Below are positions 45,468 through 57,742 of a stretch of 64,000 nt of DNA, piece after piece. The notes under the pieces are model-generated. The model saw nothing but the letters and a program-made list of their open reading frames with translations, did not search any database and was not told where the DNA came from. Position numbers and translations under genes: made by a program. The DNA is from Caballeronia temeraria (GTDB lineage: Bacteria; Pseudomonadota; Gammaproteobacteria; Burkholderiales; Burkholderiaceae), in assembly GCF_001544795.2 (NCBI RefSeq), contig NZ_FCOI02000003.1:124001-188000 (forward strand), given 5' to 3'. How positions within the stretch are numbered: position 1 is the stretch's first letter; each line of letters begins with the position of its first letter.

Positions 45468-45719
45468 ATGAAAACTGAATTGCGCCGCATCCTCGCCGAG
45501 TCCGCTCGTCTCGACGTGCCCATCGACACGCTCGCCGACGGCGACGATCTCTACGCCGCCGGTCTTTCCTCGCTTGCCACGGTTCACGTGATGCTGGCGA
45601 TCGAAGACGAATTCGGCATCGAGATTCCCGATCACATGCTCACGCGCCGGCTCTTTTCGAGCGTCGATTCGCTCGCCTCGGCCGTCGACGAACTGCGTCG
45701 CACGCAGGCGGCAGCATGA
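45468..45719 (+). CDS. Acyl/aminoacyl carrier protein
   Basis: 83-residue carrier protein. Ser35 in GLSSLATV is the phosphopantetheine site, with the usual acidic recognition helix (VMLAIEDEFGIEIPDHML). First gene of a tight operon; its stop overlaps the next start as ATGA. It is the natural partner of the amino acid:carrier-protein ligase two genes on, rather than of fatty-acid synthesis. No phosphopantetheinyl transferase is in the window. Confidence 0.9.
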   Translation: MKTELRRILAESARLDVPIDTLADGDDLYAAGLSSLATVHVMLAIEDEFGIEIPDHMLTRRLFSSVDSLASAVDELRRTQAAA

Positions 45720-46969
45720 ACGCGCCCGCTCAAGAGCTCGAGATGGCCGAGCTCGCGCAGAGCGCGAGCCCGCGCAGCGAAAGCGAGCTGATCGAAGCCG
45801 CCAGACGCGTGGCCGCGGTCGCAGCAAAGCACGCCGATGCGGTTGACCGCGAAGCGCGCTTTCCGGCCGAAGCCATCGCCGCGATGCGCGAAGAGCGTCT
45901 TTTCTCCGCGATGATCCCGACGATCTACGGCGGCGACGGCCTGACGCTCACCGGCGTCGCGCGCTTGTGCGAAGCAATGGCGCAAGGCTGTGCGTCCTCC
46001 GCGATGATCTATGCGATGCACCAGAGCCAGGTCGTGTGCATCGTCGATCATGGCGTCAATGTGCCTTGGCAGCGCGACTTTCTCGCGCGCATGGTCAACG
46101 AACAGTTGCTGCTCGCATCGGCGACGTCGGAAGAGAACATCGGCGGCAACATGCGCACGAGCGCATGCGCGGTCGATCTTGTCGACAACGCGTTTCGCAT
46201 CGAGAAGCTCGCGCCGACCATTTCGTACGGCAAGTATTCCGACTGCATTCTCGTGACCGCACGCCGTCATCCGGATGCGCCGCCCTCGGATCAGGTGCTG
46301 ATCGTCGCGCCGCGCGACACGTTCACGCTCGAGCAGCGCGGCACGTGGGACACGCTCGGCATGCGCGGCACGTGCAGCGAAGGACATCGCCTGGTTGCAA
46401 GCGGCACCGCCGAGCAGATTCTGCCGACGCCCTTCTCGAAGATCGCCGACGAAAGCATGCTGCCCGTATCGCATACCTTGTGGTCGTCGGTATGGTGCGG
46501 CATCGCGAGCGACGCCGCGAACCGCGCGCATCAGTTCTTCCGCAATCAGGCGCGCGGCAAGCCTGCGTTGCCGCCTTCGGCTGCGCGTCTTTCGCAAGTG
46601 CTGACGCTCATCAAAATGATGCAGGCACGTCTGCGCGAATCGCTCGCGAATGTCGAAGCGGCGCAAGCCGAACGCGCGGTGCGCAAAGCGAGCCAGAGCA
46701 ACGACGACGACGCTCCGCTCGCAGCTTCGATCGGCATCAACGCCGATCTGAACATGCTCAAGCTGGCGGTTTCGCAGTCGGCCGTGCATGTCGTGCAGGA
46801 AACGCTGATGATCTGCGGCATGGCGGGCTACAAGAACGACACGCCGTTCAGCGTGGGGCGCCATCTGCGTGATCTGCATTCGGCGCCGCTCATGATCAGC
46901 AACGATCGCATCGAATTGAACACGGCGAATCTGCTGCTTGCGCAGCGCGCCGCAACGGGGACTCTTTGA
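45716..46969 (+). CDS. Acyl-CoA dehydrogenase-like flavoprotein
   Basis: 417-residue protein with the acyl-CoA dehydrogenase fold: helical N-domain (RFPAEAIAAMREERLFSAMIPTIYGGDGL), the beta-domain FAD stretch (ENIGGNMRTSACAVDL) and a C-terminal helical bundle (GMAGYKNDTPFSVGRHLRDLHSAPLMI). In this setting it probably oxidises an aminoacyl group while it is attached to the carrier protein, as known for prolyl-carrier-protein dehydrogenases, but that is inference. Translationally coupled to the carrier-protein gene, and followed after three bases by the ligase. Confidence 0.85.
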   Translation: MNAPAQELEMAELAQSASPRSESELIEAARRVAAVAAKHADAVDREARFPAEAIAAMREERLFSAMIPTIYGGDGLTLTGVARLCEAMAQGCASSAMIYAMHQSQVVCIVDHGVNVPWQRDFLARMVNEQLLLASATSEENIGGNMRTSACAVDLVDNAFRIEKLAPTISYGKYSDCILVTARRHPDAPPSDQVLIVAPRDTFTLEQRGTWDTLGMRGTCSEGHRLVASGTAEQILPTPFSKIADESMLPVSHTLWSSVWCGIASDAANRAHQFFRNQARGKPALPPSAARLSQVLTLIKMMQARLRESLANVEAAQAERAVRKASQSNDDDAPLAASIGINADLNMLKLAVSQSAVHVVQETLMICGMAGYKNDTPFSVGRHLRDLHSAPLMISNDRIELNTANLLLAQRAATGTL

Positions 46970-46972
46970 AAC

Positions 46973-48040
46973 ATGAACATGCCGACGGAACAGGCCGCCA
47001 TGATGCAGGCCGAAGCACAAGCACAATCACAAGAGACTAAGGCACCGTACGACAAATCGGACCTGACCTTGCGCGATCGCCTGATCGAAGCCGGGATTCT
47101 GCTCGATACGGGTGAAGACGGTCTCTATGGCCGCAGCGAAGTTTTCGAAGATGTCGTCGAGCGGCTCAATCAGGCCATCACGATGCTCGGCGCGGATCAG
47201 AACGCGGAAGTGCTGCGCTTTCCGCCCGCGATGCGCCGCCGCGATTTCGAGGACAGCGAGTATCTGAAGAGCTTCCCGAATCTCGCCGGCACGATCCATT
47301 CGTTCCAGGGGAACGACCGCGGGCATCATCGCCTGCTCGAAGCGCTCGACAAGATCGTGCATATCGGCGAAGAGGAAGAGCGCTCCGATGAATGGATGGA
47401 TCAGCAAAAGCCGACGCGCCTCGTGCTCACGCCGGCTGCCTGCTATCCGATCTATCCGCTCGTCGCGAAGCGCGGCAATCTCGCTGAAGACGGCGCGACC
47501 TTCGATGCCTTCTCGTATTGCTTCCGCCACGAGCCGTCCATCGATCCGGGCCGCATGCAGATGTTCCGGATGCGCGAATACATTCGCGTCGGCAGCCCCG
47601 AGCAAGTCATGGCGTTCCGTCAGAAGTGGATCGAGCGCGGCTCGCTGCTCGTGAATCTGCTCGAACTGCCCTTCGAGATCGATCTCGCCAACGATCCGTT
47701 CTTCGGTCGCGGCGGCATGATCGTCGCGGACAGCCAGCGCGCGCAGCAACTGAAGTTCGAACTGCTCGTGCCGGTCGCAACGCCGGATCGTCCGACCGCT
47801 TGCCTGTCGTTCAACTATCACCAGGATCACTTCGGTGAGCTGTGGCATATCCGTCAGGCCGACGATCAGGTCGCGCATACCGCATGTGTGGGTTTCGGCA
47901 TGGAGCGCACGACGCTCGCGCTCTTCCGTCATCACGGTCTCGATGTCAACGCGTGGCCCGCGAAAGTGCGTCAGTTGCTGTGGGGCGACAAGGCGCCGCT
48001 CATCGAAGAAGGCCTCGCGAACATGGGAAGCCAGGCATGA
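46973..48040 (+). CDS. Amino acid:[carrier protein] ligase (class II aminoacyl-tRNA synthetase homologue)
   Basis: 355 residues. It has class II synthetase motif 2 at Arg185-His186-Glu187 (CFRHEPSIDPGRMQMFRMREY) and motif 3 GFGMERTTLALF at 307-318, but no tRNA-binding domain. This is the layout of the atypical seryl-tRNA-synthetase-like enzymes described from Bradyrhizobium and Agrobacterium, which adenylate a small amino acid and load it on a carrier protein. Cys in PAACYPIYP, Glu187 and a Cys before motif 3 are likely zinc ligands. Its stop overlaps the next start as ATGA. Confidence 0.88.
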   Translation: MNMPTEQAAMMQAEAQAQSQETKAPYDKSDLTLRDRLIEAGILLDTGEDGLYGRSEVFEDVVERLNQAITMLGADQNAEVLRFPPAMRRRDFEDSEYLKSFPNLAGTIHSFQGNDRGHHRLLEALDKIVHIGEEEERSDEWMDQQKPTRLVLTPAACYPIYPLVAKRGNLAEDGATFDAFSYCFRHEPSIDPGRMQMFRMREYIRVGSPEQVMAFRQKWIERGSLLVNLLELPFEIDLANDPFFGRGGMIVADSQRAQQLKFELLVPVATPDRPTACLSFNYHQDHFGELWHIRQADDQVAHTACVGFGMERTTLALFRHHGLDVNAWPAKVRQLLWGDKAPLIEEGLANMGSQA

Positions 48041-49041
48041 ACGCACGCTCGCCGGCAGACGTCGTGACCGACACGCCCTTGCCCGCGGACACCGCTCACA
48101 GCCAGCACGCGCTGCATCGTGAAGAGCGCGTCTGGCTGGAGACGAACTGCTACGTCGATTTGTGGATCGAGCTGCTGCATCACTATGGCTGCGATCCGCA
48201 TGCGGCGCTCGGTTTCACGGTGACGCAGGCATTCGAGGGCGATCAGTTCACGTTCCCGAAGTTCTCGCTCGACGACATCGCGCGGCTCTACGGCCTGCAG
48301 GCACAAGAGCTCGCGATCTACGACACGCTGGAGGCGCACGTGCGCGAGCAGACGCGTCGCGGGCAGATGGTGGTGGTCGAGATGGACTCGTACTATCTGC
48401 CCGATACGCGTGCAACCGCGTACCGGCAGACGCATACGAAGACGACCATCGCGATCGATGCCATCGACACGGACGCGAAGCGCATCACGTACTTCCATAA
48501 CGCGGGCTATTTCGCGTTGTCGGGCGAGGACTACGATGGCGTATTCCGTCTGATGCCCGGTCTCGCAAGCGACGTGCACGCGCTCTTTCCGTACGTCGAA
48601 TTCGTGAAGCGTGCGCGCGCGCCGCTCGCAGGCGAAGCGATGGTGCAACGCTCGGTCGAGTTGCTCAAGTTGCGCCTCGAAGATCGTCCAGCGGCGAACC
48701 CGGTCGCGCAATGGCGTGCGGCGTTTCCCGAGCATTTGCGCGCGATGCTCGAACGCGATCCCGCGTACTATCACCTCTACACGTTCAACGTGATGCGTCA
48801 GCTCGGCTCGAACTTCGAGTTGTTGTCGAAGTATCTCGGCTGGCTGAACCGGCATGGCGTGGACGTGTCGAGCGAGATCCAGACGAGCGCGCAGGCGATC
48901 GCAAGCGAAGCGATGGTCATGCAGTTCCGTCTCGCGCGTGCCCGCATGCGCTCACGCACGGACTTGTGCGAAGACTGCCTCGATTCGATGCAGGCATCGT
49001 ATGACAAGGTCATCGAGCCGCTTGCCGCGCGCTTTCTCTGA
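48037..49041 (+). CDS. DUF1839-type protein, putative aminoacyl transferase
   Basis: 334-residue soluble protein. I associate it with DUF1839 from NCYVDLWIELLHHYGCDPHAALGFTVTQAFEGDQFTF near residue 30 and MVVVEMDSYYLPDTRATAYR near 125. The Cys, His and Asp in these stretches could form a catalytic triad like that of BtrH-type acyl transferases, which move a group from a carrier protein to an acceptor. This role is inferred from the operon; the family is not characterised as far as I know. Coupled to the ligase by ATGA overlap. Confidence 0.7.
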   Translation: MNARSPADVVTDTPLPADTAHSQHALHREERVWLETNCYVDLWIELLHHYGCDPHAALGFTVTQAFEGDQFTFPKFSLDDIARLYGLQAQELAIYDTLEAHVREQTRRGQMVVVEMDSYYLPDTRATAYRQTHTKTTIAIDAIDTDAKRITYFHNAGYFALSGEDYDGVFRLMPGLASDVHALFPYVEFVKRARAPLAGEAMVQRSVELLKLRLEDRPAANPVAQWRAAFPEHLRAMLERDPAYYHLYTFNVMRQLGSNFELLSKYLGWLNRHGVDVSSEIQTSAQAIASEAMVMQFRLARARMRSRTDLCEDCLDSMQASYDKVIEPLAARFL

Positions 49042-49110
49042 ACGCCAAAGCCGTGCGTCACGCGCGCGGCTTTGGCGTCGTTCTTCGAATCCCATCGATG
49101 AGGTCGGTTC

Positions 49111-51576
49111 ATGCACGTCTTGTCCGCGCAGGCGGCGCGGCTTCTATCCGAAGGCTGGCAGTGCGTGAGCACGCCGGCGGGTGCGTGCGCGACGCCCGCA
49201 TCGCTCGATACCTTCACGCAGTGGATCGACGCGCCCGTGCCCGGCACGATCGCTTCCGCCTTGCGTGCACAAGGCGTGAGTGATGAAGCGCTCGCGCAGC
49301 CGTTCGCGCATTCGGATCACTGGTATCGCGTGACGCTCGCGGGCGATGGCAAGCGGCGCTTGCGGTTCAATGGCCTCGCGACTATCGCCGAAGTATGGCT
49401 CGACGATCGCAAGCTGCTCGAAACGGATTCGATGTTCGTCGCACATGATCTCGATGTCGATCTGAACGGCGAGCACACGCTTCATCTGTGCTTTCGTTCG
49501 ATCGCGCCCGCGCTCGCCGCAAAACGCGGACGCGCGCGCTGGCGTCCCAAGCTCGCGCAGCCGGCCACGTTGCGCAACGTGCGCACGACGCTGCTCGGCC
49601 ATATGTCCGGATGGTGTCCGGCGATTCAACCGGCAGGCCCCTGGCGCGCGATCGAATTGATCGGCGAAACGCGTGCGTGCATCGACGACATCGATTTGCG
49701 CACGAGCGTCGATGGCAGCGATGGCGTTATCGATGTCACGGTGCGCTACTTTCATGCACAGGAGCAGATGCCGATCCGCATCGCGTGCGGCGATACGCAC
49801 GCCACGATGCAATGGCAGGACGCACGCACGCTCACAGGCCGCGTCCGTGTGCCCAAGGTACGTCTGTGGTATCCGCATACGCACGGCGAGCCGTCGCGTT
49901 ATGCCGTGAAGCTCGGCGATATCGAACTTGGCGAAGTCGGCTTCCGCACGATCGAGGTCGATCGCGGCGCGGACCACAAGGGCTTTCGGCTCGTCGTCAA
50001 TGGCGTGCCCGTGTTCGCGCGCGGCGCGTGCTGGACATCGGCGGATATCGTCGCGCTCGATGCGCCGCGCGACAAGCTCGACAACATCTTCAAGTTGATC
50101 CGCGACGCCGGCCTGAACATCATTCGCGTGAGCGGCATCACGCTCTACGAATCCGACACGTTCTACGAACTCGCCGACAAACACGGCGTGCTCGTGTGGC
50201 AGGACTTCGCGTTCGCCAACTTCGATTATCCCGACGACGAAGCCTTTCGCGCGAGCGTGCAACGCGAAGCCGATCAGTTCCTCGCACGCACGCGCCGATT
50301 CGCATCGCTTGCCGTGCTGTGTGGCGGAAGCGAAGTGCATCAGCAAGCGGCGATGCTCGGCCTGTCCTTCGATGCGTATCAGCAACGCCTCTTCACCGAA
50401 CTCTTGCCGAATGCGATCGCAGCGCAACGGCCCGATGTCGCGTATGTCGTGAATTCGCCGAGCGCCGCGCCCGGCGACACGGAATCGATGCCCTTCGGCA
50501 CGCGCGGCGGCATCACGCATTACTACGGCGTGCCTGCGTATCAACGTTCGTTCGATGATGTGCGTCGCGCGCAAGTGCGTTTCGCTTCCGAGTGCCTCGC
50601 GTTCGCCAATGTCCCTGATGATGTGGCGTTACGGTCCATACCGAATCCGCGCGCGCACGAACCGCGCTGGAAAACAGGCGTGCCGCGCGATCCCGGCTCC
50701 GCATGGGACTTCGACGATGTGCGCGAGCACTACATGCAATCGCTTTATCGCCTGGACGTGCCGCGTTTGCGTTATGAAAATCCCGAGCGTTATCTGGAAC
50801 TCTCACGCGCGGTTGTCGCGGACGTGATCGGCGCGGTGTTCTCCGAATGGCGTCGCGAAGGATCGACTTGCGCGGGCGGCATCGTGTGGAATCTGCTCGA
50901 TGTGCGTCCGGGCGCGGGCTGGGGCGTCATCGACGTGCTCGGTGCGCCGAAGAGCGCGCTGCATGGACTCGCGCGCGTGTCGCAGCCGGTGCAGGCACTG
51001 ATCCTCGACGAAGGTCTCGACGGTCTCGACGTGCATCTCGTCAACGATACTGCGCGCGTGATTCAAGCGCGCGTCGAACTGACGTGTCTGCGCGAAGGCT
51101 CGGTGAAGGTCGCAGGCGGCTCACGCAATGTCATATTGCAGCCGCGCAGCGTGCAGCGTGTGTCGTCGAATGCGTTGATCGGCGCGTTCTTCGATATCGC
51201 TTATGCATACCGCTTCGGCCCGCGCGCGCATGATGCGACGCATGTCGTGTTGCGCGATGCGGACTCGGGCGAAGTGTTGTCGGAAGCGTTCCACTTCCCC
51301 GATCCGTCGATCGGCGAGCGTCGCGATATCGGCTTGAATGTCAGCGTCGAGAAAGACGATGAAGGCTGGAGTCTCGTCATCGAAACGGCGCAGCTTGCGC
51401 GCTGGGTGCATATCGTCGATCCGAACTACTTCGCGCGCATCGACTGGTTTCATCTCGCGCCGGGAAGCGCGCGTCGTATTCCGCTCGTCGCGCGGCACGC
51501 GAAGGTAAGCGCCGCGCCCGAGGGCGATGTGTCCGCGATCAATGCGATTCGAAGCGCGACGTATCGCGCTTCGTGA
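49111..51576 (+). CDS. Glycoside hydrolase family 2, beta-mannosidase-like
   Basis: 821 residues with no signal peptide, so cytoplasmic. The N-terminal jelly-roll has APVPGTIASALRAQG and DHWYRVTLAGDGKRRLRFNGLATIAEVWLDD. The TIM barrel has the acid/base Glu408 in CGGSEVHQQ (GNNE in most beta-mannosidases) and the nucleophile Glu494 in RFASECLAF. Both catalytic acids are kept, though the GNNE motif is altered. It follows the DUF1839 gene by 69 bases on the same strand, suggesting a glycoconjugate step: hydrolysis or transglycosylation of the operon product. Confidence 0.8.
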   Translation: MHVLSAQAARLLSEGWQCVSTPAGACATPASLDTFTQWIDAPVPGTIASALRAQGVSDEALAQPFAHSDHWYRVTLAGDGKRRLRFNGLATIAEVWLDDRKLLETDSMFVAHDLDVDLNGEHTLHLCFRSIAPALAAKRGRARWRPKLAQPATLRNVRTTLLGHMSGWCPAIQPAGPWRAIELIGETRACIDDIDLRTSVDGSDGVIDVTVRYFHAQEQMPIRIACGDTHATMQWQDARTLTGRVRVPKVRLWYPHTHGEPSRYAVKLGDIELGEVGFRTIEVDRGADHKGFRLVVNGVPVFARGACWTSADIVALDAPRDKLDNIFKLIRDAGLNIIRVSGITLYESDTFYELADKHGVLVWQDFAFANFDYPDDEAFRASVQREADQFLARTRRFASLAVLCGGSEVHQQAAMLGLSFDAYQQRLFTELLPNAIAAQRPDVAYVVNSPSAAPGDTESMPFGTRGGITHYYGVPAYQRSFDDVRRAQVRFASECLAFANVPDDVALRSIPNPRAHEPRWKTGVPRDPGSAWDFDDVREHYMQSLYRLDVPRLRYENPERYLELSRAVVADVIGAVFSEWRREGSTCAGGIVWNLLDVRPGAGWGVIDVLGAPKSALHGLARVSQPVQALILDEGLDGLDVHLVNDTARVIQARVELTCLREGSVKVAGGSRNVILQPRSVQRVSSNALIGAFFDIAYAYRFGPRAHDATHVVLRDADSGEVLSEAFHFPDPSIGERRDIGLNVSVEKDDEGWSLVIETAQLARWVHIVDPNYFARIDWFHLAPGSARRIPLVARHAKVSAAPEGDVSAINAIRSATYRAS

Positions 51577-51588
51577 CACGATCGAAGA

Positions 51589-52557
<969 letters not shown>

Positions 52558-52575
52558 TCAGTGCGTAACGATACC

Positions 52576-53505
52576 CTATCGCCCCCAGCGCAACACCGTC
52601 GCATCCAGTCGCCGCGCAATCGCGATCAACTCATCGCGCGTTTCCTGCCCCATCGCCGGCAACGGATGGCGCGGCGCCTCGCACGCGATCACACCGCCCT
52701 CCTTCATCAACGCCTTCGCCGCGAGCAAGCCCGCCTGCCGGTTCTCGTGATTGATGAGCGGCAGCCAGCGCTGATACAGCTCGAATGCTTCGTCCACGCG
52801 TCCATTGCGATGCGCCTCGATGATCGGACGGATGCCATCGGGGAAGCCGCCGCCCGTCATCGAGCCGGTCGCGCCCGCGTTCAGATCGGCGAGCAGCGTG
52901 ATCGCTTCTTCGCCGTCCCACGGACCTTCGATCGCCTCGCCGCCGAGCCTGATCAGCTCGCGCAGCTTGTTCGCCGCGCCCGGCGTTTCGATCTTGAAGT
53001 ACGACACCTGCTCGATCTCGCGAGCCATGCGCGCGAGGAAAGCCGCCGACAAAGGCGTGCCCGCGGCGGGCGCGTCCTGAATCATGATGGGGATCGTCAA
53101 CGCATCGGAAAGGCGCGCGTAGAACTCATAGATCGATCCCTCGGGCACGCGAAACGTCGCGCCGTGATACGGCGGCATCGCCATGATCATCGCGGCACCG
53201 AGGTCCTGCGCGCGGCGGCTGCGTTCGATGCATACGCGCGTGCCGTAATGCGATGTCGTCACGATCACCGGCACGCGGCCCGCGACGTGTTCGAGGATCG
53301 TGCGCGTGAGCGTGTCGCGTTCATCGTCGGCGAGCGAGAACTGCTCGGAGAAATTCGCGAGAATCGCGAGGCCGTCGGAGCCCGCGTCGATCATGAAATC
53401 GACCGCGCGTTTCTGACTGTCGAGATCGAGTTCGCCCGATTCGGTGAAGGTCGTCGGCACAACCGGGAAGATGCCGCGATAACGTGGATTGGCGAGACTG
53501 GTCAT
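52576..53505 (-). CDS. DHDPS-family 2-keto-3-deoxy-sugar-acid dehydratase (L-KDA type)
   Basis: 309-residue dihydrodipicolinate-synthase-superfamily enzyme. Schiff-base Lys171 is in SYFKIETPG; the PYHGATF segment and GGFPDGIRP are typical of L-2-keto-3-deoxyarabonate dehydratase, which gives 2-oxoglutarate semialdehyde. Its length equals that of the Azospirillum enzyme as I recall it. Placed between a sugar dehydrogenase and an IlvD/Edd dehydratase gene, which strongly supports this role over lysine synthesis. Confidence 0.83.
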   Translation of the reverse strand: MTSLANPRYRGIFPVVPTTFTESGELDLDSQKRAVDFMIDAGSDGLAILANFSEQFSLADDERDTLTRTILEHVAGRVPVIVTTSHYGTRVCIERSRRAQDLGAAMIMAMPPYHGATFRVPEGSIYEFYARLSDALTIPIMIQDAPAAGTPLSAAFLARMAREIEQVSYFKIETPGAANKLRELIRLGGEAIEGPWDGEEAITLLADLNAGATGSMTGGGFPDGIRPIIEAHRNGRVDEAFELYQRWLPLINHENRQAGLLAAKALMKEGGVIACEAPRHPLPAMGQETRDELIAIARRLDATVLRWGR

Positions 53506-53544
53506 GCTGTCGTCCGATATGAAATGAAATGAGAGCGCATGCGT

Positions 53545-54891
53545 TCAGCGCGCGCGCGGCCTGTCGAGCACGGCGCGCACGACGAAGGTGGTGAGCACCG
53601 CGATCAGCAGCGTCGCCGCGAGAAAGTACAGGCCGGCGGCCAGACTGCCCGTGCGATCCTTGATGACGCCGACGCCCGTCGGCCCGAAATAACCGCCGAG
53701 ATTGCCGATGGAATTGATCGTCGCGATGCCGACCGCCGCGCTCGCGCCCGTCAGGAACTGACCCGGCAACGCCCAGACAACCGGCTGGATCGAATAGAGC
53801 GAGAATGCCGCGAGGCAGATGAACGCGAACTGCCACTGAACGCTGCCCGCCCAGGCGCTCGCGGCCAGCATCACCGCGCCGAAGCTCGTCACCGCGACGA
53901 TATGCCAGTAACGCTCGCGCTTGCTGTCCGAATGACGCGGCACGATGCACAGGCCGAGCACCGCGAAAAGATACGGGACGGCGGACAGCAGGCCCGTCAT
54001 CGAATCGGTGACGCCGAAGCCCTTGATGATCGTCGGCAGCCACAGCGACAGGCCGTAGATCGCAAGCGGAAACGGCAGGAACAGCAACGCGAGCAGCAGC
54101 ACGCGCTTGTCCTTCAGCGCGGCCAGCGGATTGCCGTGCGATTTCAGCGCGAACGTCGCGCGATCCCGCGCAAGCTCGCGTTCGATCCACGCGCGATCGG
54201 CCGGTGCGAGCCAGCGCGCCTGCGCGGGCGATTCGGGCAGGATTCGCAATGTAGGCAGCGCGAGCAGTACGGCAGGCAGGCCGCTCACGATGAACAAGGT
54301 CTGCCAGTTCGACATGCCGAAGACGCCGTGTGTCGAAAGAATCCAGCCCGCAAGCGGTCCTGTGACGATGCCGGAGACAGGCTGCGCGAGCACCAGCAAA
54401 CCGATGATGCGCGCCCGCTGACGCAGGGGAAACCACTTCGTCAGGAAGTACAGAATGCCGGGATACAGGCCCGCTTCCGCCGCGCCCAGCAGAAAGCGCA
54501 GCGCGTAGAAGCTCATCGGGCCGCGCGTGAGCGCCATCGCCATCGTGATGACGCCCCACGTCGCGAGAATGCGCGCGAACCATACGCGCGCGCCAAAGCG
54601 TTCCAGCGCGAGATTGCTCGGCACTTCGCACAGGAAATAGCCGATGAAAAAGAGTCCCGCGCCGAGTCCATAAGCCGCATCGCTCAGGCCGACCGCGGCG
54701 TTCATGTGCAGCTTCGCAAAGCCGACGACAGTACGGTCGATATAGGCGACCACATAGATCAGCGCGAGGAACGGCATCAGCTTGCGGATCAGCATACCGA
54801 CGATGCGCCGCTCCGTGCCGCCGTCCTGTGCCGCCATACCATCTGTCGCGGGCGCGGCGCGATCGAGCGCTGCCGCGGTGTCGTATTTCAT
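53545..54891 (-). CDS. MFS transporter of the sugar-acid operon
   Basis: 448-residue, 12-helix permease of the anion:cation symporter group (FLALIYVVAYIDRTVVGFAKLHMN; GWILSTHGVFGMSNWQTLFIVSGLP). GGAG precedes the ATG at 54891, 22 bases after the dehydratase stop. Probably imports an aldonate such as arabinonate or galactonate. Confidence 0.87.
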   Translation of the reverse strand: MKYDTAAALDRAAPATDGMAAQDGGTERRIVGMLIRKLMPFLALIYVVAYIDRTVVGFAKLHMNAAVGLSDAAYGLGAGLFFIGYFLCEVPSNLALERFGARVWFARILATWGVITMAMALTRGPMSFYALRFLLGAAEAGLYPGILYFLTKWFPLRQRARIIGLLVLAQPVSGIVTGPLAGWILSTHGVFGMSNWQTLFIVSGLPAVLLALPTLRILPESPAQARWLAPADRAWIERELARDRATFALKSHGNPLAALKDKRVLLLALLFLPFPLAIYGLSLWLPTIIKGFGVTDSMTGLLSAVPYLFAVLGLCIVPRHSDSKRERYWHIVAVTSFGAVMLAASAWAGSVQWQFAFICLAAFSLYSIQPVVWALPGQFLTGASAAVGIATINSIGNLGGYFGPTGVGVIKDRTGSLAAGLYFLAATLLIAVLTTFVVRAVLDRPRAR

Positions 54892-54913
54892 ACGGTCTCC
54901 TGTGTATTTTATT

Positions 54914-56647
54914 TCAGTGCGAATGTCTCGGCACGGCCGCGCCTCGTTTGCCGACGAGAAAATCGAGGTCGCAACCTTCATCGGCCTGCAGCACGTGATC
55001 GACATACAGGCGTTGATAACCGCCTTCGCCATGCTTGCTCGACGGCTCGCGATCGCTCATGCGCCGCGCGAGTTCTTCATCGCTGATGTCGAGATGCAGC
55101 GTGCCCGCATCGCAATCGAGTTCGATCCAGTCGCCATCGCGCACGGCCGCAAGCGGCCCGCCCGCCGCCGCTTCGGGCGCGACGTGCAGCACGACCGTGC
55201 CGTATGCGGTGCCACTCATGCGCGCATCCGAGATGCGCACCATGTCCTTGACGCCCGCGCGCAGGAGTTTGGGCGGCAAGCCCATATTGCCCACTTCGGC
55301 CATGCCCGGATAACCCTTCGGCCCGCAGTTCTTCAACACGAGCACGGAGTTTTTGTCGACATCGAGCGACTCATCGACGATGCGTTCCTTGTAATGCTCC
55401 AGGTTTTCGAATACGACCGCGCGGCCGCGATGCTTCAGCAGTTCGGGACTCGCCGCCGATGGCTTGAGAACCGCGCCGCGCGGCGCGAGATTGCCGCGCA
55501 GAATGCGAATGCCGCCATCGTCGATCAATGGATTGCTCAGCTTGCGAATCACTTCGTCGTCGGTGATGGGCGCGCTCTTCACGTTCTCCCACAGCGATTT
55601 GCCATTCACCGTCAACGCATCGGGATGCGGAATCAGGTTCGCTTCGCCCAGACGCCGCAACACGGCAGGCAAGCCGCCCGCGTAATAGAACTCCTCCATC
55701 AGGAAGCGGCCCGACGGCATCAGATCGACGATGGTCGGCGTATCGCGGCCGACGCGCGTCCAGTCCTCCAGTTCGAGCGGCACGCCGATGCGCCCCGCGA
55801 TCGCCTTCAGGTGAATCACCGCATTGGTCGAGCCGCCGATCGCCGCATTCGTGCGGATCGCGTTTTCGAAAGCTTCGCGCGTGAGAATCTTCGAGAGCGT
55901 CAGCCCTTCGAGCGCCATCTCCACGATGCGGATGCCCGACATATGCGCGAGCACGTAGCGGCGCGAATCGACGGCGGGAATCGCGGCGTTGTGCGGCAAC
56001 GACGTGCCGAGCGCTTCGGCCATGCAGGCCATCGTCGATGCCGTGCCCATCGTGTTGCAGGTGCCCGCCGAACGCGACATGCCCGCTTCCGCCAACAGAA
56101 ACTGATGCAGATCGATCTCGCCCGCCTTCAGCGACTCATGCAGTTGCCACACGGCCGTGCCCGAGCCGATGTTCTTGCCATCGAGCTTGCCGTTCAACAT
56201 CGGCCCGCCGGTCACGACTATCGCGGGAACATCGCAGCTTGCCGCGCCCATCAGCAGCGCGGGCGTGGTCTTGTCGCAGCCGGTCAGCAGCACGACCGCG
56301 TCGATGGGATTGCCGCGAATCGCTTCCTCGACGTCCATCGCGGCAAGATTGCGCGTGAGCATCGCGGTGGGCCGCAGGTTCGATTCGCCGTTGGAGAACA
56401 CCGGAAACTCGACGGGAAAGCCGCCCGCCTCGTACACGCCGCGCTTCACGTGCTCCGCGATCTTGCGAAAGTGCGCATTGCACGGCGTGAGTTCCGACCA
56501 CGTATTGCAGATGCCGATGATCGGCCTGCCGTCGAACTCGTGATCCGGAATGCCCTGATTCTTCATCCAGCTTCGATACATGAAGCCGTTCTTGTCGTTG
56601 GTGCCGAACCATTGCGTGGAGCGCAGCTTGGGCTTCGATGCGGACAT
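54914..56647 (-). CDS. IlvD/Edd-family dehydratase, L-arabinonate dehydratase type
   Basis: 577-residue Fe-S enzyme. Cys56 (TWSELTPCN), Cys124 (LLTGCDKTT) and Cys197 (SAGTCNTMG) have the same spacing (68 and 73) that I recall for the [2Fe-2S] ligands of Rhizobium L-arabinonate dehydratase. The RMSGTAYG stretch supplies the catalytic Ser. Converts an aldonate to its 2-keto-3-deoxy acid. First gene of the operon; AAGGGA lies eight bases before the ATG at 56647. The promoter region up to the LysR gene has three ATCGAT/ATCGAC-type repeats (near 56668, 56704 and 56730) as possible LysR sites. Confidence 0.87.
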   Translation of the reverse strand: MSASKPKLRSTQWFGTNDKNGFMYRSWMKNQGIPDHEFDGRPIIGICNTWSELTPCNAHFRKIAEHVKRGVYEAGGFPVEFPVFSNGESNLRPTAMLTRNLAAMDVEEAIRGNPIDAVVLLTGCDKTTPALLMGAASCDVPAIVVTGGPMLNGKLDGKNIGSGTAVWQLHESLKAGEIDLHQFLLAEAGMSRSAGTCNTMGTASTMACMAEALGTSLPHNAAIPAVDSRRYVLAHMSGIRIVEMALEGLTLSKILTREAFENAIRTNAAIGGSTNAVIHLKAIAGRIGVPLELEDWTRVGRDTPTIVDLMPSGRFLMEEFYYAGGLPAVLRRLGEANLIPHPDALTVNGKSLWENVKSAPITDDEVIRKLSNPLIDDGGIRILRGNLAPRGAVLKPSAASPELLKHRGRAVVFENLEHYKERIVDESLDVDKNSVLVLKNCGPKGYPGMAEVGNMGLPPKLLRAGVKDMVRISDARMSGTAYGTVVLHVAPEAAAGGPLAAVRDGDWIELDCDAGTLHLDISDEELARRMSDREPSSKHGEGGYQRLYVDHVLQADEGCDLDFLVGKRGAAVPRHSH

Positions 56648-56764
56648 CCGTTCCATCCCTTTCAATAATCGATATTTGGCGAAGTCTAAAAGTCCACGCG
56701 ATAATCGACTAATGAAAAGTTGGACGTTATCGATATTCAAATCTGCATTCGTAAAAACCCTTAG

Positions 56765-57742
56765 ATGCTGAATCCAAGTCCCTGGTACGTGCGCAATCGC
56801 CTGAAAACACGGCAACTCATGCTCGTCGTGGCGCTCGCGGAAGAAGGCAACGTGCATCGCGCGGCGGCTGTGCTGAACATGACGCAACCCGCTGCGTCGA
56901 AACTTTTGCGCGAACTGGAAGAAACGCTCGGTGTCGCGCTGTTTGATCGCGAGCCGCGCGGCGTGCGCCCCACGCTATACGGCGACGCCATCATTCGTCA
57001 TGCGCGCGCCGTGCTCGGCAGTCTCGATCAGGCACAGGAAGAACTCGTCGCGCTCGCGTCGGGGCGGCTCGGGCATGTGGCGATCGGCGCGATCACGTCG
57101 CCGGGCGTGCGGCTCTTGCCTGCCGCCGTCGCCGCCGTGAAGCGCGCGCATGCGGATATCCGCATTTCCGTCGAGATCGATACGAGCAACGTGCTGCTGG
57201 AAAAGCTCGCGCAGGAAAAGCTCGATATCGTGATCGGCCGTCTTTCAGCCGAGCACGACAAGGTGCAATTGCGTTATGAGGCGCTTGCCGGCGAGCCGGT
57301 GCGCGCCGTCGTGCGGGCGGGGCATCCGTTGTTGAAGGAGAAGGCGCTGTCGTTGAGCGATGTGCGCGATGCCGCGTGGCTCGTGCCGCCTGCGGGCAGC
57401 GCGCTGCGGCATCGATTCGACCTGATGTTTCAGCGCGCGAGCCTCGCGCTGCCTGCGAACGTCGTCGAGACCGCGGCGATTCTCTTCGTCACGCAACTGC
57501 TGGAACAGAGCGACATGATCGCAGTGCTCGCCGAAGATGTCGCGCTTTACTACGCGCGTCACGGCATCGTCGCGATGCTGCCGTTGCCGATGGATTGCCG
57601 CATGGACGACTTCGGCATCGTCACGCGGGCGGACCGGCTGCTCTCGCCCGCGACCGAAGTCATGGCCGATGCGTTGCGCACGATCGCCCGCGATGTGTAC
57701 GGCGATCAGGCCGTCGCAGCCATCTCCACCGGCGCACGATAA
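56765..57742 (+). CDS. LysR-type regulator (GbpR-like) of the sugar-acid operon
   Basis: 325 residues. The N-terminal helix-turn-helix is LKTRQLMLVVALAEEGNVHRAAAVLNMTQPAASKLLRELEETLG, followed by the substrate-binding fold. The N-terminus resembles GbpR, the galactose/arabinose-responsive regulator of Agrobacterium and Azospirillum. It is divergent from the dehydratase gene, so it should control that operon. Its last 37 bases overlap the convergent oxidoreductase gene. Confidence 0.87.
   Translation: MLNPSPWYVRNRLKTRQLMLVVALAEEGNVHRAAAVLNMTQPAASKLLRELEETLGVALFDREPRGVRPTLYGDAIIRHARAVLGSLDQAQEELVALASGRLGHVAIGAITSPGVRLLPAAVAAVKRAHADIRISVEIDTSNVLLEKLAQEKLDIVIGRLSAEHDKVQLRYEALAGEPVRAVVRAGHPLLKEKALSLSDVRDAAWLVPPAGSALRHRFDLMFQRASLALPANVVETAAILFVTQLLEQSDMIAVLAEDVALYYARHGIVAMLPLPMDCRMDDFGIVTRADRLLSPATEVMADALRTIARDVYGDQAVAAISTGAR

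Follow-up and report, generated by a model that had tools for sequence, protein, structure and literature searches.

The five genes at positions 45468-51576 of the window, by which we mean the whole stretch of 64,000 nucleotides of Caballeronia temeraria analysed here (assembly GCF_001544795.2, contig NZ_FCOI02000003.1, positions 124,001-188,000; all coordinates are relative to it), form a real and conserved gene set of a kind that was predicted in 2010, for which our analysis brings new support to the transferase step and corrects the redox step proposed in an initial annotation of this DNA. They encode a carrier protein, a flavoprotein of acyl-CoA-dehydrogenase fold, a class II amino acid:carrier-protein ligase, a DUF1839 protein and a protein resembling glycoside hydrolase family 2 (GH2). 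The reading that we favour, with moderate confidence, is that a pathway in the cytoplasm attaches an oxidised small amino acid to a sugar, most likely a surface-polysaccharide precursor. Judging from family membership, the ligase would form the aminoacyl-adenylate of a small amino acid and load it onto the phosphopantetheine of the carrier, after which the flavoprotein would oxidise the carrier-bound aminoacyl group either by monooxygenation or by an unusual dehydrogenation. Given its fold and its conserved Cys and His, the DUF1839 protein could then accept the acyl group on Cys38 and hand it over to an amine or hydroxyl of the sugar in a CcbD-like manner, while the GH2 protein and a tandem hydrolase might trim or proof-read the glycan or clear mis-acylated product, which is the weakest step of the scheme.

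That the five genes form one pathway is supported because DUF1839 and GH2 share a phyletic pattern and the gene order is conserved. All five occur in identical order and on one strand in 73 of 80 loci collected by ligase similarity, a set which comprises the best 80 of 430 matches and is hence biased to close relatives. In 398 Pseudomonadota genomes, a broader sample with less bias, the ligase passed its cut-off in 28, DUF1839 was found in 16 and the GH2 clade (E up to 1e-60) likewise in 16; the GH2 and hydrolase searches scored only the top two or three candidates that a first look gave in each genome. The DUF1839 genomes and the GH2 genomes are the same 16, each of them has the ligase, and the five genes stand together in all (15 fetched loci and the window); at the genus level, DUF1839 and GH2 are each present in 11 of 212 genera (Fisher 1e-18, a statistic that ignores phylogeny). 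The open reading frames and families of the initial annotation, five genes on one strand, were confirmed, and the co-occurrence of these families, whose failure it had named beforehand as one of two outcomes that would make a single pathway unlikely, was found in both samples. The gap ahead of the GH2 gene is all that speaks for chance neighbours without joint function, and with the order kept in 73/80 loci and the shared 16/398 pattern we give this explanation practically no credit. As regards the incomplete sets among the 80 loci, contig ends account for L038 and L064, the sequence of L045 stops 0.8 kb past the ligase, and in L034, L046, L070 and L074 the sequence runs on without the absent genes. 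The best relatives of the window DNA in a similarity search are Caballeronia, and the gene set extends over Caballeronia, Paraburkholderia, Mycetohabitans, Azospirillum and nodule Rhizobium.

The DUF1839 protein (48037..49041, + strand as for the whole operon; PF08893, 428 bits) carries the most informative new evidence. Its predicted structure matches, over the full length of the fold, the carrier-protein-dependent Cys transferases, and best of all CcbD, an enzyme that links an amino acid borne by a carrier protein to an amino sugar; that the loaded amino acid passes from the carrier to a sugar-like acceptor, as the initial annotation had proposed, thus gains support from the model, and DUF1839 is probably a transferase of this kind. 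The likeness to the lincosamide condensing enzymes CcbD and LmbD comprises the full-length fold, a conserved Cys, a basic C-terminal helix region and, as would be expected, a carrier-bound amino acid donor; DUF1839 differs in having no detected sequence similarity to them and a triad of the order C-T/S-H. The fold search alone showed this connection, sequence comparison of DUF1839 with solved structures having given nothing credible. In the model Cys38 starts the helix 38-49, the likeness to CcbD lying at the level of the whole fold, and basic residues near 301-307 are a possible docking patch for the carrier. Both Cys38 and His154 are present in 18/18 sequences of alignment A3, and a genome-by-genome check found at least one DUF1839 copy with the Cys in all 16 genomes; an earlier residue count drew on 105 rows, of which 24 were gapped and set aside, and in which the window copy and the second copy of its own genome occur repeatedly. 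Copies without the Cys were found at L102:9527-10555 (the window's own genome), at L117:7401-8381 and in L108, and each of these genomes has another copy that keeps it. The second DUF1839 gene of the window genome lies near a glycosyltransferase family 4 (GT4) gene, a Crp-like gene and WcaJ.

The proteins expected to feed this transferase belong to named families. The carrier protein (45468..45719, 83 aa; PF00550; NF005480, 128.6 bits for a cut-off of 72) has its phosphopantetheine site, Ser35, intact in 103/103 rows (residue counts refer to rows above the score cut and include repeats of the window copy). Its gene overlaps that of the flavoprotein by an ATGA at 45716, three bases (46970-46972) separate the flavoprotein from the ligase, and a second ATGA at 48037 joins ligase and DUF1839, junctions that can be read in the sequence as the initial annotation had described them. 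The ligase (46973..48040, 355 aa, Bll0957 type) reaches 514.3 bits with NF005479, the amino acid--[acyl-carrier-protein] ligase model, against an equivalog cut-off of 357, and falls slightly below cut-off with Pfam PF00587. Its phmmer matches to 4h2w (E 7e-89) and 3mey (E 9e-88) show a class II core in which motifs 2 and 3 are present, as annotated. Four residues, R185, C157, E202 and C305, are each kept in 116/116 rows, the last three being, as we assume from their spacing, zinc ligands. The amino acids attributed to such ligases in PMC9437257 are Ala, Gly and Ser; literature searches found no described product of amino acid:carrier-protein ligases, despite their solved structures.

The ligase also occurs outside the gene set. 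For 11 of the 12 ligase genomes without DUF1839 the locus was fetched (G335 was left out): the flavoprotein stands beside the ligase in 11/11, a carrier match was found in 9/11 and DUF1839 or GH2 in 0/11, the wider neighbours giving no lead to function. The same pairing of ligase and acyl-CoA dehydrogenase is described for Bradyrhizobium bll0957/bll0958 in PMC10888616, which also lists Bll0957 and Bll0958 at 3.0-fold in a phaR mutant, and Atu2573 appears as a module hub gene of a transcriptome in PMC11941606. On a Priestia megaterium plasmid (L128), AcpS, the acyl carrier protein, flavoprotein and ligase lie beside a transporter, an ATP-grasp protein, an alanine permease and an alanine racemase, and this set perhaps makes a different alanine-derived product. 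A further 17 ligase matches below cut-off, in 16 genomes, are divergent homologues; in the 12 such loci that were fetched there was no nearby match to flavoprotein, carrier, DUF1839 or GH2, and these proteins perhaps have another function.

It is at the redox step that we depart from the initial annotation, in which the amino acid was loaded, desaturated and transferred: the single pathway is upheld by phyletic pattern and gene order, and desaturation is not. The flavoprotein (45716..46969, 417 aa; PF02771 and PF00441; invariant Cys92, His102 and His253) has the fold and the domain architecture of an acyl-CoA dehydrogenase, and its persistence beside the ligase where DUF1839 and GH2 are missing suggests that it acts on a carrier-bound substrate. 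The position of the catalytic Glu is, however, occupied by I394 (108 Ile and 7 Val in 115 rows, columns being taken from alignments) and the alternative base position by S252 (78 Ser, 25 Thr, 10 Ala, 2 Cys), so that neither Glu nor Asp stands at either place in any of the 115 rows. We take these positions to be those of MCAD-376 and, for the alternative one, MCAD-255 or IVD-254, and an MCAD T255E/E376G entry is among the Foldseek matches of the flavoprotein. In that search the monooxygenases TdsC and DszC hold ranks 1-3 and KijD3 rank 4, a dehydrogenase following at rank 6 with a similar E-value; the fold is tied between dehydrogenases and the flavin mononucleotide-dependent monooxygenases of group D (DszC, KijD3), and PF08028 is matched by 4 of 15 flavoprotein members. 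The absent Glu and the tied fold search together weaken desaturation as the default redox step. One may nevertheless suppose, within the favoured pathway and for this step only, a true dehydrogenase that desaturates the aminoacyl-carrier with a relocated base, for instance His102 or His253; the loss of the acid at both base positions, the identity of the top Foldseek matches and the PF08028 members make us regard it as somewhat doubtful. The ZmaI/ClbF/RedW-type proteins, which we take to be dehydrogenases of carrier-bound amino acids, resemble the operon flavoprotein in that they, too, have an acyl-CoA-dehydrogenase fold and accompany a carrier and an enzyme that activates amino acids; the operon flavoprotein differs in lacking Glu at both usual base positions, and it scores 28 bits with the RedW model, whose cut-off is 650.

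What points to a polysaccharide as the acceptor is largely the company of the gene set, which in some cases is part of an exopolysaccharide cluster. An alpha/beta hydrolase of about 600 aa is annotated after it, on either strand, in Azospirillum, Mycetohabitans, Rhizobium rhizoryzae and Phyllobacterium plasmids; Azospirillum brasilense Sp7, for one, has the five genes together with this hydrolase. This protein consists of two tandem hydrolase domains, whose halves match the exosortase-A-associated hydrolases 1 and 2 below cut-offs; the version of Rhizobium sp. NLR16a carries a fused polysaccharide-flippase-like domain and has two GT4 genes around it. A match of at least 100 bits was obtained in 36 of the 80 loci, and in the broader sample the tandem hydrolase occurs in 17/398 genomes, namely all 16 with DUF1839 and G322, which has neither DUF1839 nor GH2; in 11/16 genomes its distance to the ligase is at most 15 kb, for 0.09 expected. 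The window genome has two copies on other contigs, and about 7 kb separate one of them from a WcaJ-type gene. In L117, from the window's family, the set has a WcaJ-type transferase (TIGR03023, over cut-off) on one side and, on the other, a polysaccharide tyrosine autokinase (TIGR01007, over cut-off) together with the tandem hydrolase, and matches of at least 100 bits to WcaJ- or Wzc-type proteins are found in 19/80 loci, including Caballeronia, Paraburkholderia and Pararobbsia (a count made with no control).

The same enzymes might instead yield a diffusible small molecule, an aminoacyl glycoside in the manner of lincosamides or mycothiol, the polysaccharide neighbours being incidental. CcbD belongs to a small-molecule pathway, as do, we presume, CtaG and AziU3/U2; the GT4 beside the second DUF1839 copy matches BshA of bacillithiol synthesis below cut-off, the Priestia set carries its transporter and ATP-grasp genes, and the window operon stands apart from polysaccharide genes. 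Yet the best match of that same GT4, also below cut-off, is a polysaccharide-type glycosyltransferase of the XrtA system, WcaJ, Wzc, flippase-like and GT4 genes adjoin several sets, and the halves of the tandem hydrolase resemble exosortase-A-associated enzymes, which leads us to consider the small glycoside rather unlikely. Three Rhizobium plasmids from nodule isolates, L137 (R. acidisoli), L138 (R. gallicum, with a whole GH2) and L139 (Rhizobium sp. C104), place the set directly after nif genes and an exopolysaccharide-repressor gene; a scan of the nodule-plasmid sets for sigma-54 and upstream activating sequence (UAS) patterns gave matches, none of them in the stretch preceding the operon. 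The R. sullae plasmid (L140) keeps the carrier and fragments, and that of R. binae (L141) four genes and no GH2 match.

The GH2-like protein (49111..51576, 821 aa) is recognised by the PF22666 N-terminal domain, by a sub-threshold match to PF17786 (E up to 0.001) and by long phmmer matches to beta-mannosidases; the Pfam GH2 catalytic domain was not recognised in it, a point which the initial annotation had not covered. The two acids which that annotation had reported, E408 (in CGGSE) and E494, align with Glu residues of the beta-mannosidase structure 2vjx that we take to be its acid/base and nucleophile, and they are kept in 95/96 and 94/96 rows, the remainder being gaps. According to the rule of clan GH-A an Asn precedes the acid/base; the window protein has Ser instead, as do 93 of the 96 rows (Asn in 2, a gap in 1), and we conjecture that this Ser reflects a glycon altered at C2, such as a 2-amino sugar. 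A bolder version of the pathway can be imagined, in which an N- or alpha-oxygenated amino acid (e.g., N-hydroxy or oximino) is made on the carrier and a CcbD-like transferase, a variant with swapped triad, fixes it to a surface polysaccharide at an amino sugar, with the GH2 adapted to a 2-amino sugar. We hold it to be unlikely, and we know of no such polymer decoration.

The hydrolase annotations also lend themselves to a reading in terms of breakdown, in which the GH2 and the hydrolase cut a glycan bearing aminoacyl groups and the freed amino acid is dealt with by the carrier system. Beyond the operon, at 51589-56887 on the - strand, a family search identified a Gfo/Idh oxidoreductase, a DHDPS-family protein and an MFS transporter, and the translation of one further open reading frame resembles an IlvD/Edd dehydratase; this group, whose likeness to sugar-acid catabolism would suit breakdown, is probably separate from the operon. 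The sugar-acid genes and a UvrA-like gene that adjoin the operon were rejected as pathway members, not being retained with it beyond close Caballeronia. Moreover, an ATP-dependent ligase that loads a carrier is usually biosynthetic, and hydropathy, the measure used, gives no sign of a signal peptide in any of the five window proteins; altogether we find breakdown very improbable.

The 69-base gap between DUF1839 and GH2 contains a hairpin (49042..49078; fold z -4.4), again beyond the initial annotation, which is a possible attenuator or mRNA stabiliser. In an alignment of 17 chosen Caballeronia sequences, 95.9% of the cells are paired and both partners have changed in 8 of 16 pairs, against at most 46.1% and 4 pairs with double changes in slid controls. 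Five Caballeronia loci with gaps of 61-91 bases were left out of this alignment; their longest perfect stems are 11 (L012), 8 (L019) and 4 (L013, L014, L018). The corresponding gap in Azospirillum and Rhizobium is mostly shorter than 50 bases, and the stems there measure 3-5. The GH2 gene may accordingly be attenuated or separately controlled in the Caballeronia clade.

Several observations weigh against a single pathway that decorates a polysaccharide. The hairpin may uncouple GH2 from the operon in this clade; L070, L074 and L141 have DUF1839 but no GH2 match though their sequence continues, GH2 is fragmented in L137 and L139, and the L140 set is degraded. Since 12 of the 28 genomes with an over-cut-off ligase have neither DUF1839 nor GH2, the ligase has further uses. 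As to the transferase, the order of the triad, Cys38, Thr137 and His154, departs from the C-H-D/E of the CcbD type, profile A3 found no CcbD-type match among PDB sequences up to E 10, and in G255 and G328 the Cys is missing from the very DUF1839 copy that stands between ligase and GH2; the swapped order C-(T/S)-H is reported in PMC10318531. With respect to the acceptor, none of the five operon neighbours searched by family in the window (0/5) is a polysaccharide-assembly gene, and five annotated plasmid sets, those of Caballeronia grimmiae, Shinella, R. gallicum, R. binae and R. leguminosarum Vaf10, have no entry for the alpha/beta hydrolase immediately behind GH2, although their gene tables are incomplete. 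Only 3/16 genomes have a WcaJ-type gene no more than 15 kb away, for 0.35 expected, and the polysaccharide link is therefore present but not general.

The gene set was foreseen in a note added in proofs to a study of 2010 (Biol Direct 2010;5:48, PMC2922099), which describes a conserved neighbourhood of ligase, acyl carrier protein, redox enzyme, the uncharacterised Atu2574, glycosidase and liposaccharide genes, proposes that the Atu2574-type protein forms an amide between an amino acid and a surface amino sugar, and considers the redox enzyme to be probably a monooxygenation step. From its position beside the ligase we infer that Atu2574 is the DUF1839 protein, and the window operon shows no essential difference from that neighbourhood. 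Searches of the open-licence literature found no experimental follow-up. New with respect to the 2010 proposal are the fold match of DUF1839, the tandem-hydrolase partner, the loss of the flavoprotein base, the altered GH2 motif, the phyletic counts and the paired copies with and without Cys. The D-alanylation of teichoic acids by DltABCD, which we take to comprise an ANL-type ligase, the carrier DltC, the MBOAT protein DltB and DltD, is alike in charging a small carrier with an amino acid bound for a surface polymer. It differs in that the operon ligase resembles a class II aminoacyl-tRNA synthetase, the transferase has a Cys-protease fold and is apparently cytoplasmic, and an oxidation step is present; the DltC model gives the operon carrier 22.8 bits for a cut-off of 68, and neither DltB nor DltD is matched among the five proteins.

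As a result, DUF1839 gains a concrete candidate mechanism, and the redox question is narrowed to a mass shift of -2 versus +16. The gene set reaches bacteria in which surface sugars matter in host contact.

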